From Extensimonas perlucida (lineage in GTDB: Bacteria > Pseudomonadota > Gammaproteobacteria > Burkholderiales > Burkholderiaceae_C), in contig NZ_VMYE01000004.1 in NCBI RefSeq assembly GCF_007655255.1, positions 1-64,000 of the forward strand: a stretch of DNA of 64,000 nt. Reading direction: 5' to 3'. This document shows positions 2,909 through 49,834 of this stretch, in pieces. Under the pieces are notes generated by a model. The model saw only the letters and a program-made list of their open reading frames with translations, was not told the origin of the DNA and made no database searches. How positions within the stretch are numbered: the first letter of the stretch is position 1; the number at the start of each line of letters is the position of its first letter. A program made the translations under genes and the position numbers.

Positions 2909-2954
2909 TTTCTCAATGCCAAAATTGGCATTTCAGGCAATACCAATAAGCGCC

Positions 2955-3119
2955 AGGAGCCTGTCGGGCTTTGGGCGTCGAAAGCGAGAATGTGCCCCAG
3001 CGAGACCAGTTTTTGCCGGATTCGCCGCCCCATAGCAGGACTATGGGGCAAGAGGCCGGTGAAAAGTGGGCCGCTGCGGCGCATTCGCAGCCGACGATTC
3101 CAAAGCCCGACAGGCTCCT
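2955..3119 (+). repeat. 165-bp palindromic element, copy 1
   Basis: Full-length copy bounded by perfect 20-bp terminal inverted repeats (AGGAGCCTGTCGGGCTTTGG at 2955-2974 and its exact complement at 3100-3119). Inside is a second hairpin with 9-bp arms, GCCCCATAG and CTATGGGGC, and a 5-bp loop. Relative to copies 2, 3 and 4 it is in the opposite orientation. It lies in the gap before the YdhR-like gene, 37 bp upstream of its start codon, and is readable as an open frame. It encodes no transposase. Confidence 0.9.
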
Positions 3120-3156
3120 AGCAGCTATTCATACCGAAGCAATAAAGGAGACCCTC

Positions 3157-3541: not shown

Positions 3542-4496
3542 GCTTTACGCCGGGCAGCTCGCACGCATAGACGGCGTTGCGCAGCGCGGCGATGGCTTCA
3601 TAGCGCGTGAAGCTGCGCCGCCAGGCCAGCACCACGCGGCGCGAGGGCGGCGGGCCGTTCTCATCGGCGTGCAGCGGCAGGTAGCGCACCAGGGCATCAT
3701 CGCTCTTGCGCCGGCGCGCGTTGCCGGGCAGTGCGGTACGTGGCACGGCGAGTTGCGGCACCAGCGTCACGCCCATGCCCTCGGCCACCATGTGCTTGAT
3801 GGTTTCGAGCGACGAGCCCTCGAAGGTGCGCCGCATGCCCTCGGCGTTGGTGGAAAAGCGCGCGAATTCGGGGCAGACCTCGAGCACTTGGTCGCGAAAG
3901 CAATGGCCTGAGCCCAGCAGCAGCATGGTCTCGTCGCGCAGTTCGGTAGCCGACACGCTCTTGCGCTGGGCCAGCGGGTGCTTGGCCGGGATGGCGGCCA
4001 TGAAGGGCTCGTCGTACAGCGGTGCGATCGCGAGGTTGGTGTCGGGAAAGGGCTCGGCGAGGATCGCGCAATCGATCTCGCCCGTGCGCAGCATGTCGAG
4101 CAGTTTCAGCGTGAAGTTTTCCTGCAGCAGCAGCGGCATTTGCGGCGTGCGCTCCATGCTGCGGCGCACCAGTTCGGGCAGCAGGTAGGGGCCTATGGTG
4201 TAGATCACGCCCAGGTGCAGCACGCCCGCGAGCGGGTCCTTGCCGCGCCGCGCGATCTCTTTGATCGCGGCGGCCTGCTCCAGCACGACTTGCGCCTGGC
4301 GCACGATTTCTTCGCCCAGCGGCGTGACGGCCACATCGCCGGCATTGCGCTCGAAGAGCTTGACGTCGAGCTCTTCCTCGAGCTTTTTGATCGCCACCGA
4401 CAGGGTGGGCTGCGAGACATGGCAAGCCTCTGCAGCGTGGCCGAAGTGTTTGGCGCGTGCGAGCGCGACGATGTATTTGAGCTCGGTGAGGGTCAT
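3531..4496 (-). CDS. oxyR: LysR-family hydrogen-peroxide sensor OxyR
   Basis: 321-residue LysR-type regulator. The winged helix-turn-helix is at about residues 5-60 (HAAEACHVSQPTLSVAIKKL) and is followed by a periplasmic-binding-like effector domain. The redox pair is exact: Cys199 in GSGHCFRDQ and Cys208 in LEVCPEF, the same numbering as the disulfide pair of E. coli OxyR, so peroxide sensing by a C199-C208 disulfide is well supported. It probably activates catalase, peroxiredoxin and related genes that lie outside this window. It follows the NERD-helicase gene on the same strand with a 42-bp gap and lies downstream of recG. Its last codons are formed by a 14-bp tandem repeat. Confidence 0.92.
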   Translation of the reverse strand: MTLTELKYIVALARAKHFGHAAEACHVSQPTLSVAIKKLEEELDVKLFERNAGDVAVTPLGEEIVRQAQVVLEQAAAIKEIARRGKDPLAGVLHLGVIYTIGPYLLPELVRRSMERTPQMPLLLQENFTLKLLDMLRTGEIDCAILAEPFPDTNLAIAPLYDEPFMAAIPAKHPLAQRKSVSATELRDETMLLLGSGHCFRDQVLEVCPEFARFSTNAEGMRRTFEGSSLETIKHMVAEGMGVTLVPQLAVPRTALPGNARRRKSDDALVRYLPLHADENGPPPSRRVVLAWRRSFTRYEAIAALRNAVYACELPGVKRLT

Positions 4497-6544: not shown

Positions 6545-8809
6545 TCAGGCCTTCAAATACTCCTCTTTGCCCCCGAGCCAGCGTTCCACGTGGCGCGCGG
6601 CGAGGTCGGGGTGTTGATCGAGCATCTGCGGCGCGAGCGCGCGCGCCCATTCGAGCAGGGCTTGGTCGGTGGCGAGGTCGGCAAAGCGCAGCATGGCCTC
6701 TCCCGACTGGCGCGCGCCCAGAAATTCGCCGGGGCCGCGGATGGCCAGGTCGCGCCGCGCGATCTCGAAGCCGTCGCTGGTCTCCAGCATGGCCTTGAGG
6801 CGCGCGCGCGCCGTCTCGCCCAGGCGGCCGCTCTCGCCCGTGGCGTAGAGCAACACGCAGGCCGAGGCCGCACTGCCGCGCCCCACGCGCCCGCGCAGCT
6901 GGTGCAGCTGGCTCAGGCCGAAGCGCTCGGCGTGCTCGATCACCATCAGGCTCGCGTTGGGCACGTCCACGCCCACCTCGATCACCGTGGTGCTGACGAG
7001 CACGCCCATGTGCCCGCCGCTGAACTGCGCCATGACGGCTTTTTTCTCGGCGCTGGGCATGCGCGCGTGCAGCAGGCCCACGCGCACGCCGGGCAGGGCC
7101 GCGCTGAGTTCGGCGTGCGTCGCGGTCGCGTTGCTCAGGTCGAGCGCCTCGCTTTCCTCGATCAGCGGGCACACCCAATACACCTGCCGCCCCTGCGCGA
7201 GCTGGGCGCGGATGCGCTCTATCACTTCATGGCGGCGCTGCTCGGCCACCAGTTTGGTGACCACGGGCGTGCGGCCCGGCGGCAGCTCGTCGATCGTCGA
7301 GACGTCCAGGTCGGCGTAGTAGCTCATGGCCAGCGTGCGCGGGATGGGCGTGGCGCTCATCATCAGCAGGTGAGGTTCTAGTAGCCTGTCGGACTTTGGG
7401 ATCGTCGGCTGCGGCGCATGCTCGCTTTCGACACCCAAAGTCCGACGGGCTCCTAGCGCCGATGCGGACAGCTTCTGGCGCAGCGCGAGCCGCTGCGCGA
7501 CGCCGAAGCGGTGTTGCTCGTCGATGATGGACAGGCCCAGGCGCGCAAAGCGCACCTGCTCTTGAATCACCGCGTGCGTGCCCACGACCAGCGCGGCTTG
7601 GCCCGAGGCGATCAGCGCGAGCATTTCGGCGCGCGCCTTTTTCTTTTGGCTGCCCGTGAGCCAGGCCACGCACTGGCCGCGCGGCGCGAGCAAGGGTGCG
7701 AGCCAATCGACCAGCTTGGCAAAGTGCTGCTCGGCGAGGATTTCGGTCGGCGCCATGAGCGCGCACTGCCAGCCCGCGGCGATGGCCGTGGCCGCGGCGA
7801 GCGCCGCGACCACCGTCTTGCCCGAGCCCACGTCACCCTGCAGCAGCCGGTGCATGGGCTGCACGCGCGCGAGGTCGTGCGCGATCTCCGCGCTCACGCG
7901 GCGCTGCGCTGGGGTGAGCTCGAACGGCAGCGCCGCCAGCAATTGCTCGGGCAGCTCGCCCGCTGGCGCGCGCAGCTGGGGGGCGCGCCGCTGCGCGCGC
8001 TCGCGCCGCGCCTGCCACTGCGACAGCTGCTGCGCGAGCAACTCCTCGGCCTTGAGGCGCTGCCATGCCGGATGGCTGCGGTCTTCGAGCGTGGAGAGCG
8101 CCACGTCGGGCGCGGGTTTATGCAAAAAAAAGAGCGCCTCACGCAGGTTGAACAATGACTTTTGGCCATTTTTATCTAAAAACTCGGCGCCCGGCGGCGC
8201 GACGCCCGCGGGCAAGGTCTCGGACAGGTCGGCGCGCGCGAGCGCCGTCAGCACGGCGCGGCGCAGATAGGGCTGGGGCAGGCCCGCGGTGCTCGGATAG
8301 ACGGGCGTGAGCGCGGCGGGCAGCTCGCCCTCTGCGGGGCGAAACGCCGGGTGCAGCATCTGCCGCCCCCAAAAGCCGCCGCGCACCTCGCCGCGTATGC
8401 GCAGGCGCGCGCCCACGGCGAGCGCCTTTTGCTGCGATGGGTAGAAGCTGAAAAAACGCAGCACGCAGCTGCCCGTGCCGTCCTCCACCGTGACGAGCAG
8501 CTGGCGGCGCGGGCGCAGCTGCACTTCGCTGGCCGTGACCGTGGCCTCGATCTGCACCACCTGCCCGTCGCGCGCCTGCGCGAGCGGCGTGATGCGCGTT
8601 TCGTCCTCGTAGCGCAGCGGCAGGTGCAGCGCTAGGTCGATGTCGCGCACCAGGCCGAGTTTGCGCAGGGCTTTTTGCGGGCCGCTCAAGGGCGCTTTGC
8701 GCGCGTCCCTGACCGGCTTTTCTGGCACGGTGTCCGGCGCTTCCTGTATTGCGGCGGTGCGCACATCAGCGGCGGCGTTCGAGGAAGCGGGCATGCGGGT
8801 GGGGAACAT
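6545..8809 (-). CDS. recG: ATP-dependent DNA helicase RecG carrying an in-frame repeat-derived insertion
   Basis: 754-residue RecG that remodels stalled replication forks and Holliday junctions. The wedge/OB domain spans about 50-200, Walker A is GDVGSGKT (325-332), the DEQH box is at 430-433 and the SATPIPRTLAMS motif begins near 485. Between LALRQKL and HLLMMSATPIP, residues about 452-477 (LGARRTLGVES ... PKSDRLLE) are encoded by a 75-bp deleted copy of the 165-bp palindromic element (7380-7454). The usual RecG sequence runs almost directly from the DEQH region to the SAT motif, so this is an insertion that keeps the frame and adds no stop. The start at 8809 is an ATG; Met6 is an alternative. 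The gene is divergent from the HD-GYP gene. Confidence 0.93.
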   Translation of the reverse strand: MFPTRMPASSNAAADVRTAAIQEAPDTVPEKPVRDARKAPLSGPQKALRKLGLVRDIDLALHLPLRYEDETRITPLAQARDGQVVQIEATVTASEVQLRPRRQLLVTVEDGTGSCVLRFFSFYPSQQKALAVGARLRIRGEVRGGFWGRQMLHPAFRPAEGELPAALTPVYPSTAGLPQPYLRRAVLTALARADLSETLPAGVAPPGAEFLDKNGQKSLFNLREALFFLHKPAPDVALSTLEDRSHPAWQRLKAEELLAQQLSQWQARRERAQRRAPQLRAPAGELPEQLLAALPFELTPAQRRVSAEIAHDLARVQPMHRLLQGDVGSGKTVVAALAAATAIAAGWQCALMAPTEILAEQHFAKLVDWLAPLLAPRGQCVAWLTGSQKKKARAEMLALIASGQAALVVGTHAVIQEQVRFARLGLSIIDEQHRFGVAQRLALRQKLSASALGARRTLGVESEHAPQPTIPKSDRLLEPHLLMMSATPIPRTLAMSYYADLDVSTIDELPPGRTPVVTKLVAEQRRHEVIERIRAQLAQGRQVYWVCPLIEESEALDLSNATATHAELSAALPGVRVGLLHARMPSAEKKAVMAQFSGGHMGVLVSTTVIEVGVDVPNASLMVIEHAERFGLSQLHQLRGRVGRGSAASACVLLYATGESGRLGETARARLKAMLETSDGFEIARRDLAIRGPGEFLGARQSGEAMLRFADLATDQALLEWARALAPQMLDQHPDLAARHVERWLGGKEEYLKA
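7380..7454 (+). repeat. 75-bp deleted palindromic element inside recG, copy 2
   Basis: Retains both terminal inverted repeats (AGTAGCCTGTCGGACTTTGG and CCAAAGTCCGACGGGCTCCT) and the sequence just inside each, but lacks the central 90 bp with the inner hairpin. Both 165 and 90 are multiples of three, so insertion and deletion preserve the recG frame. It has the same orientation as copies 3 and 4. Translated on the minus strand it adds about 25 residues between helicase motifs II and III. Confidence 0.92.
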
Positions 8810-20908: not shown

Positions 20909-20955
20909 TTTTGATAGCTGCCAGCGCTTGATACACCTTGGCTTTTGGCCGATTT
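20909..20955 (+). repeat. Short AGCTGC/GCGCTTG hairpin repeat, copy 2
   Basis: TTTTGATAGCTGCCAGCGCT followed by TGATACACCTTGGCTTTTGGCC, in the gap between the convergent GH15 and pseudouridine synthase genes. It matches the copy at 26727-26775 closely. Confidence 0.75.
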
Positions 20956-20976
20956 GGCTCAAAATTCGCAATCCAC

Positions 20977-26726: not shown

Positions 26727-26775
26727 TTCAATAGCTGCCAGCGCTTGATAAACCTGCACAAATGGCCATTTTGAC
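26727..26775 (+). repeat. Short AGCTGC/GCGCTTG hairpin repeat, copy 3
   Basis: TTCAATAGCTGCCAGCGCTT then GATAAACCTGCACAAATGGCCATTTTG, in the gap between livH and livM. It is in the direction of transcription and lies inside the operon, so it would be transcribed. Confidence 0.75.
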
Positions 26776-26797
26776 TACTATTCCCAGAGGCTGACCC

Positions 26798-35052: not shown

Positions 35053-35192
35053 ATGGCCGAGCGCCGCAGGGCCCAAAGCCGCTGAGCACACCGTAAGCCT
35101 CCAGGAACATACAGCGCCTGGGGTAGCGCATAACCTGTGTGTGCATTTGCGATGCCATGGTAGCCGGCGATTCGAAAACCCTGCAGGCTGCT

Positions 35193-35357
35193 AGGAGCCT
35201 GTCGGACTTTGGAATCGTCGGCTGCGAATGCGTCGCAGCGGCCCATTTTTCACCGGCTTCTTGCCCCATAGCACCACTATGGGGCGGCGAATCCGGCAAA
35301 AACTGGCCTCGCTGGGGCGCATTCTCGCTTTCGACGCCCAAAGTCCGACAGGCTCCT
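35193..35357 (-). repeat. 165-bp palindromic element, copy 3
   Basis: Full-length copy with perfect 20-bp terminal inverted repeats AGGAGCCTGTCGGACTTTGG and its complement. Relative to copy 1 it carries a G-to-A change in one arm balanced by the matching C-to-T change in the other. The inner hairpin GCCCCATAG-CACCA-CTATGGGGC is intact. It is the same length as copies 1 and 4 and inverted with respect to copy 1. It directly precedes the MarC remnant. Confidence 0.92.
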
Positions 35358-35381
35358 AGGCACCGCAGCGCCGATTCAAAG

Positions 35382-35733: not shown

Positions 35734-35798
35734 GCCTAATGTGCACCCAACAATCAGGGGCATCGCATGCACAGTGCTACGCAGCTGGTTGACCACCT

Positions 35799-35949
35799 AG
35801 GAGCCTGTCGGACTTTGGAATCGTCGGCTGCGAATGCGCCGCAGCGGCCGATTTTTTACCGTCTTCTTGCCCCATAGCACCACTATGGGGCGGCGAATCC
35901 GGCAAAAACGGGTCTCGCCGGGGCGCATTCTCGCTTTCGACGCCCAAAG

Positions 35950-35963
<14 letters not shown>
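35799..35963 (-). repeat. 165-bp palindromic element, copy 4
   Basis: Full-length copy, same orientation as copy 3 and 441 bp from it. One terminal arm is AGGAGCCTGTCGGACTTTGG; the other, CCAAAGCCAGACAGGCTCCT, has diverged, so pairing has two defects. The inner hairpin is intact. The right end overlaps a further perfect inverted repeat, CCAGACAGGCT-CCT-AGCCTGTCTGG (35950-35974), that continues outside the element. It lies upstream of pyrG. Confidence 0.92.
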
Positions 35964-37771
<1,808 letters not shown>

Positions 37772-39003: not shown

Positions 39004-40371
<1,368 letters not shown>

Positions 40372-48082: not shown

Positions 48083-48130
48083 CTCAAAAAATAGCTGCTA
48101 GCGCTTGATATATAAGCGCTAGAGGCCCAA
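48083..48130 (+). repeat. Short AGCTGC/GCGCTTG hairpin repeat, copy 7 (clearest)
   Basis: ATAGCTGCTAGCGCTTGATA continuing TATAAGCGCTAGAGGCCC. The core CTAGCGCTT (48098-48106) pairs perfectly with AAGCGCTAG (48114-48122) across a 7-base loop. It is between the convergent tal and Sua5-like genes. Confidence 0.85.
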
Positions 48131-48151
48131 AAGACTATAAAAACAAGGCAC

Positions 48152-49730: not shown

Positions 49731-49785
49731 TTTGATAAAGATAGCTGCTTGCGCTTGCTGTACCTTGTCAAAAGGCCAAAATCAC
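49731..49785 (+). repeat. Short AGCTGC/GCGCTTG hairpin repeat, copy 8
   Basis: TTGATAAAGATAGCTGCTTG, then CGCTTGCTGTACCTTGTCAAAAGGCC, between the PHP gene (start) and the TauD-like gene (end), both on the minus strand. Confidence 0.75.
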
Positions 49786-49834
49786 TCCAAAACACATGGC
49801 GCCGCCCGCCTCCCAGGCGGCGACGCCCAGCCTC

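Follow-up and report, generated by a model that had tools for sequence, protein, structure and literature searches.

How can a palindromic repeat lie within recG and apparently leave the gene unbroken? The window in which this was observed, the whole stretch of 64,000 nucleotides analyzed here, belongs to the 3.58-Mb genome of Extensimonas perlucida (G000), a member of the Comamonadaceae; two other Extensimonas genomes (G001 and G002) were available for comparison. The initial annotation had placed a palindromic element in the recG frame between helicase motifs II and III, had read it as about 25 extra residues, and had pointed out that its lengths are multiples of three. All of this was borne out. 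The insert is located between DEQHRFG and SATPIPR, which we take to be motifs II and III of RecG, and consists of CTAG, 71 bp and a second CTAG (Table 1), so that the net gain is 75 bp, compared to a net 165 bp for the full-length element and a difference of 90 bp between the two. Reading through it adds 25 amino acids and the frame stays open. That the insert is translated is an inference, drawn from the open frames and from selection, without protein or transcript data.

Table 1. Features of the E. perlucida window (positions counted from the first nucleotide of the window).
Feature	Positions	Strand	Remarks
recG, 754 aa, frame intact with the insert	6545..8809	-	Pfam RecG_wedge, DEAD, Helicase_C, RecG_dom3_C
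Short-form palindromic element including both CTAG ends	7378..7456	-	Net +75 bp; RecG residues 452-477, LGARRTLGVESEHAPQPTIPKSDRLL
CTAG, one end of the recG insert	7378..7381		Target-duplication position
CTAG, other end of the recG insert	7453..7456		
Long form with both ends	2953..3121	- (inverted)	169 bp; one end CCAG; intergenic
Long form	35191..35359	+	169 bp; apparently intergenic
Long form	35797..35965	+	169 bp; between a tRNA and the next gene
Second dispersed repeat, starting ATAGCTGC	20914-20959, 26731-26776, 39011-39056, 48091-48136, 49741-49786		
Adjacent frames of 612, 588 and 549 aa	58100-63221	-	300-nt stretches 78-93% identical; probably tandem paralogues

To begin with, the extra residues might be an ancestral part of RecG, their likeness to the repeat being coincidental or the result of later copying. 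This is scarcely credible, since in a comparison of 82 RecGs (those of the best 80 named genomes among the matches listed, plus G000 and G002) the span between motifs II and III has 34 residues and no insert in 53 sequences, none of the 79 RecGs from outside the genus has the inserted residues, and the repeat is dispersed genome-wide. Orthologues with the same residues and without any element would have refuted the initial annotation; the element-free relatives do not have those residues. A search for empty and full-length sites in sister genomes had also been proposed. The recG genes of both G001 and G002 carry the short form, and neither an empty nor a full-length site was found. As all three Extensimonas genomes are filled, the empty recG site is inferred from other genera, and the insertion is presumably older than the split of the three species.

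A second concern was that recG and the other carriers described below are pseudogenes or misassembled, in which case the insert would remain untranslated. There is no proteomic evidence to dispel it. However, recG is intact in three species, and the dN/dS of its flanks in insert-bearing pairs of these species is 0.10-0.14. For the three other carriers tested, the flank ratios were 0.17-0.35, with insert-bearing pairs of PdxA at 0.21, Mpl at 0.18 and a transaminase at 0.21-0.35. These low values indicate that all four tested carriers are still under purifying selection. Inserts are also borne by murD and glmU, both of which are essential in many bacteria, and we consider it very improbable that the carriers are defective or artifactual. 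In a single AlphaFold model of RecG (mean pLDDT 68.6), residues 452-474 scored below 50, as did residues 608-710. Since the model is weak and much of the second motor domain is also below 50, the low pLDDT of the insert says little; probably the insert extends, as a flexible excursion, a loop in which several relatives have accommodated other repeats.

Alignment of the recG insert with the three 169-bp copies of the window revealed that 90 internal bases are missing in recG and, on this comparison, the insert is the short form of a putative 165-bp palindromic MITE. In G000, the long-form core was matched 106 times with up to three mismatches (reversed pattern 0), the element terminus 260 times (reversed pattern 16), and the short junction 6 times (reversed pattern 3), two of the six having identical flanks on contigs C1 and C49. 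Further matches on these two contigs were also paired with identical flanks, probably due to assembly duplication. With up to three mismatches, the short junction was found 7 times in G001 and 5 times in G002 (reversed pattern 0). For the long-form core and the terminus, the reversed-pattern controls show that the matches to the element are not due to chance. In total, 129 distinct copies were collected, with a length between the CTAGs of 161 bp in 111 copies, 71 bp in 11 and other values in 7; with one CTAG counted, the main forms of 165 and 75 bp correspond to 55 and 25 codons. Removal of 90 bp from the long consensus yields the short one, whose junction adjoins two GCTG repeats that are exactly 90 bp apart. 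Judged from the consensus sequences alone, the short form is a deletion between these repeats.

CTAG is present at both ends of 82 of the 129 copies. Among the 17 copies with CTAG at neither end, the same tetramer is directly repeated in three and inverted in none, and some copies start with CAGCC. In the outer 22 bases of the arms (1998 position pairs), 23 compensatory double changes stand against 59 single changes; subfamilies or arm-to-arm correction could be the cause of such joint changes. By eye, the flanks of copies L005, L016 and L157 resemble the second dispersed repeat of the window, ATAGCTGC, so that the CTAG of this repeat may be a site in which the MITE nests. The plasmid and phage collections searched did not contain the long form, and Rfam, applied to window positions 1-40000 only, returned tRNA and nothing else. 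When 200 genomes of the family were scanned, with four candidates scored in each and partial matches among those counted, the element was matched in at least 21 genomes and at least 17 of 141 genera, Extensimonas included, and at least 11 genomes outside the genus had a match of at least 160 bp. Two of the 26 loci from other genera (L277 and L296) have the element in frame with the same peptide.

A candidate for the mobilizing enzyme was found in the same genome. Our search for a partner IS covered only DDE_Tnp_1 genes, of which G000 has five. One of them (L269, contig C32) lies between facing element ends; the other four have no facing pair of ends, one of these loci being short. The L269 element measures 1576 bp between its outer CTAGs and ends with CTAGCAGCCTGTCGGACTT on one side and CTAGGAGCCTGTCGGACTT on the other. 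The first of these, the left end, agrees with the MITE in 18 of 19 bases (GAGCC versus CAGCC), and the second, the right end, in 19 of 19; the best local alignments of the MITE to the terminal 200 bases of the IS extend no further than those 19 bases. The L269 protein matches NF033551, the IS1182 family, with 370 bits (cut-off 270). The repeat shows two traits expected of an IS1182-family MITE: it is short, multi-copy and free of a transposase gene, and its terminal repeats are common to an autonomous element. An IS1182-family transposase encoded in the same genome is the likely mover, mobilization in trans being inferred from the ends. A REP/RAYT origin was set aside, as the CTAG-type ends match the IS1182 element and the repeat, with its net 165 or 75 bp, is not GTAG/CGTC-tagged.

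Empty sites in sister species demonstrate insertion at two loci, glmU and pdxA. GlmU carries the short form in G001 and is empty in G000 and G002, where the site reads CTCG; the filled site of G001 has CTAG at both ends. In PdxA, G000 has a single long copy, whereas G001 has two. Where G001 carries its second PdxA copy, the empty G000 reads CCAG, and G001 has CCCG before the insert and CCAG after it, which is compatible with a duplication of CCAG and an alteration of one end. With CTCG against CTAG in glmU and CCCG at one end in pdxA, no pair displays a perfect target duplication.

The initial annotation had described the recG insert as a deleted copy. It is indeed a form shorter by 90 bp, but this form is not private to recG, as 11 of the 129 collected copies are equally short. 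It is nevertheless possible that a 165-bp element entered recG and was trimmed within the gene to 75 bp, the shorter peptide being less harmful and favored. The short form is rare (6 versus 106 matches) yet often genic, and 4 of 11 copies are in frame; moreover, RecG is short in G001 and G002 as well, and a deletion between GCTG repeats could recur. On the other hand, the GlmU insert of G001 appears as if the short form were itself mobile, although later trimming would look alike, and the single length in three species requires only one deletion. Since the short form occurs at other places and in other species, a deletion inside recG need not be supposed, and we keep trimming within the gene only as a tentative alternative.

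The invasion of coding sequence by such a repeat had further been considered unusual here. This was wrong. Judged by the codon usage of both flanks together with a frame that stays open through the insert, 17 of the 96 copies examined in G000, and 31 of the 129 collected, were in frame within coding sequence. The G000 copies were taken without regard to genes, the long-core part from the 100 that were listed of 106 matches; the loci of G001 and G002 were partly picked by peptide searches and are not a fair sample. According to Pfam and NCBIfam, the G000 carriers comprise MurD, RecG, PdxA, glucokinase, PepN, Sua5, Mpl, an MFS transporter, an EF-Tu-type GTPase, a CorC-type protein, an AMP-binding ligase, a class-III transaminase, a CheW-domain protein, a PF11161 protein of unknown function, a YbaL-type K+ transporter, an alpha-2-macroglobulin-type protein and, in another frame, gamma-glutamyltranspeptidase. 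In 14 of the 17, one family was recognized on both sides of the insert (in 6 as a single stretch and in 8 as several, the second side being inferred). The GTPase carrier has different domains on either side, and the CheW and macroglobulin carriers gave matches on one side only. Carriers L182 and L185 had no Pfam match. L289, initially flagged as in frame, was dropped, since its match spans 39 bp and the peptide is not that of the element. A frame of 1,629 codons, reminiscent of TamB, contains two adjacent copies (L007/L047), of which the long one was scored as 'other' by the codon test.

One strand and frame is used by 30 of the 31 in-frame copies, and by 16 of the 17 in G000. The long form has one open frame per orientation, open in 109 and 100 of 111 copies, respectively; the short form has four. 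In 141 coding-like frames, usable CTAGs outside elements were in the phase CTA-Gnn 22 times and in the phase nCT-AGn 5 times, the third phase being a TAG stop. Weighting the targets by the observed ends gave 27.9 versus 5.2, again favoring CTA-Gnn. This phase is the one that accommodates the long form when inserted in the minus orientation; nCT-AGn does so for the plus orientation. The ratio of 16:1 in G000 fits the target phase (p 0.15), while that of 30:1 overall, which is affected by the biased sampling of G001 and G002, fits less well (p 0.014). Selection for one peptide as the cause of the frame bias was set aside, because the usable CTAGs, counted or weighted, favor that very frame. All four in-frame short copies by the codon test are in one orientation, which a stop cannot explain, since the short form is open both ways at CTA-Gnn.

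Selection on the inserted peptide was likewise unsupported. Compared to the consensus in the same frame, pN/pS was 0.92 for 26 in-frame long copies and 0.72 for 84 others, indicating no constraint on the peptide. Within the inserts, dN/dS was 0.39-0.40 for RecG, 1.27 for Mpl and 0.63 and 0.99 for the transaminase, each based on few sites; PdxA and two other pairs lacked silent changes, so that no ratio could be formed. Between G000 and G001 or G002, the RecG insert has diverged far more than its flanks, and the PdxA, Mpl and transaminase inserts have fewer silent-site differences than their own flanks. In the two-species inserts of PdxA (L139/L257) and Mpl (L214/L255), 0 and 1 silent changes were counted, below the flanks; gene conversion, or recent insertions that hit one site separately, would be suggested by this.

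The RecG loop was then compared in the relatives. The motif II-III span has at least 55 residues in 17 of the 82 RecGs, i.e., at least 20 extra residues, and three of the 17 are from Extensimonas. Elsewhere past reference residue 36, a single insert of at least 20 residues was found (L117, near residue 563); the N-terminal stretch had to be excluded (21 sequences at residue 0 and 3 at residue 36), because the frames were read from stop to stop. The insert of L117, from a Hydrogenophaga, has 49 residues. By eye, the 17 loop inserts fall into about eight families: Extensimonas (3), an Acidovorax type (6), PALPRAGEG (2), GRAGEG (1), SRLRGND (2), a REP-like pair (1) and singles (2). Sequences similar to the Acidovorax insert occur in 11 of 11 genomes, with 4 to 43 matches each including the recG copy, and five of these genomes have a RecG free of that insert. 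For the PALPRAGEG core, 12 and 10 sites were counted in the two genomes that carry it in RecG and none in two controls; 65 sites were found in the genome of the GRAGEG type, whose RecG insert has not been shown to belong to this family. The corresponding counts for the SRLRGND core are 174 and 215 in its own genomes and 1, 0 and 0 in three controls. Thus, 13 of the 17 loop inserts, in four families, belong to dispersed repeats, and the other four were not covered by the genome-wide search.

Hairpin z-scores against simple shuffles were strong for L021 (-4.8), L102 (-7.2), L107 (-6.1) and L120 (-4.4) and weaker for L022 (-2.3), L049 (-2.8) and L115 (-2.1), with L090 at -1.5. The Acidovorax type (-0.7 to 0.3) did not stand out from the shuffles, nor did L127, L113 and L128 (-0.7 to -0.4); with such low scores in several, not all loop inserts are palindromes in this sense. 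The RecG of Ramlibacter alkalitolerans (L120, around 4147-4476) contains two palindromic repeats, apparently nested, which bring the span to 110 residues in frame; the inner repeat occurs once more in the locus.

These data raise the question of whether the loop is a true hotspot, to which repeats are steered or in which they are kept for altered hairpin or fork handling, the insert being adaptive. In the broader version of this idea, the motif II-III loop would be a recurrent, possibly selected landing site across the Comamonadaceae, at which about eight unrelated families independently became peptide. The concentration of 17 inserts at the loop versus one elsewhere points in this direction, as does the number of changes between filled and empty on a quick RecG tree built without the loop, which is at least 13, gains and losses pooled. 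Moreover, PMC3733652 reports repeats in DNA-repair genes of several species and, for two Xanthomonas, at roughly the same position of recB. If the broader version is true, the inserts may tune RecG, a processor of hairpins and reversed forks, to tolerate the palindromes carrying them. We nevertheless regard both versions as unlikely: the peptide is without detectable constraint, the RecG insert of G000 has diverged from its sisters far beyond the flanks, the same element is found in many unrelated genes, and tolerance accounts for the clustering. The likeliest interpretation is that the loop is a permissive place that tolerates selfish DNA, the tolerance being inferred.

The best-known examples of palindromic repeats that invade genes in frame come from Rickettsia, obligate intracellular bacteria in which the means of their mobilization is unclear. 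The initial annotation had likened the recG insert to Rickettsia palindromic elements (RPE), and the comparison holds for palindromic in-frame inserts in unrelated genes. RPEs are palindromic repeats of about 150 bp that have entered the reading frames of many unrelated genes, where they encode a conserved peptide (PMC10969869, consulted in part). The resemblance here is based on open frames and domains without peptide data. In contrast to RPEs, the host is a member of the Comamonadaceae and not of the Rickettsiales, an IS1182-family element with like ends is present in the genome, and empty sites are found. By analogy, and without a sequence comparison, the element can be said to behave like an RPE with other machinery. 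Compared to IS1182-family IS and their MITEs, the transposase model is met, 19 and 18 of 19 terminal bases agree, and CTAG flanks are present; differences are that the MITE is coding-compatible in one frame and that the alignment of the ends stops at 19 bases.

Two further groups of repeats deserve mention. As far as the accessible part of PMC3733652 goes, REPs tagged with GTAG/CGTC are found inside genes, many of them DNA-repair genes of several species; they are 20-40 bp long, and the GTAG ones are thought to be mobilized by RAYT tyrosine transposases. Palindromic repeats within genes, with DNA-repair genes among the carriers, are a common trait, whereas the element described here has 165 bp, CTAG ends and an IS1182 partner. 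The main text of that paper does not mention recG. Enterobacterial RU are small mobile sequences with reading frames (PMC2759123, seen in part) and resemble our element in being small, non-autonomous and frame-keeping inside host genes, but the hosts differ and so, by name and without a sequence comparison, do the elements. Our literature searches found nothing on RecG with palindromic in-frame repeats, on IS1182 with a MITE and CTAG, or on miniature inverted-repeat elements in coding sequences of Comamonadaceae, which is no proof of absence elsewhere; the Extensimonas literature accessible to us, incomplete as it is, held nothing on this subject.

Taken together, we assign a probability of roughly 0.87 to the reading that the recG insert is a MITE, that a transposase of the IS1182 family mobilizes it in trans, and that its peptide is a passenger. 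The transposase would recognize the ends common to IS and MITE and, as inferred, duplicate a CTAG-like 4-bp target. An insertion in the minus orientation at CTA-Gnn would read Leu-Gly-Ala-Cys-Arg-... and add 55 or 25 residues, and the long form in the opposite orientation at CTA-Gnn would run into a stop. Because both lengths are multiples of three and a frame stays open, some genic insertions may be survivable, and the survivors would be those in which the protein tolerates extra residues, the RecG motif II-III loop being one such place. Transposition in trans, translation and the tolerance of the loop are the inferred parts of this scheme.

In the present case, from a host related to Acidovorax, a partner transposase has probably been identified, sister species provide both empty and filled sites, and the carriers include the core genes murD, glmU, recG, pdxA and mpl. 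The frame-neutral persistence of a mobile element and the ability of proteins to absorb 25-55 foreign residues thereby become testable, and the RecG loop, with its unrelated inserts at a single position, provides a natural comparative series.
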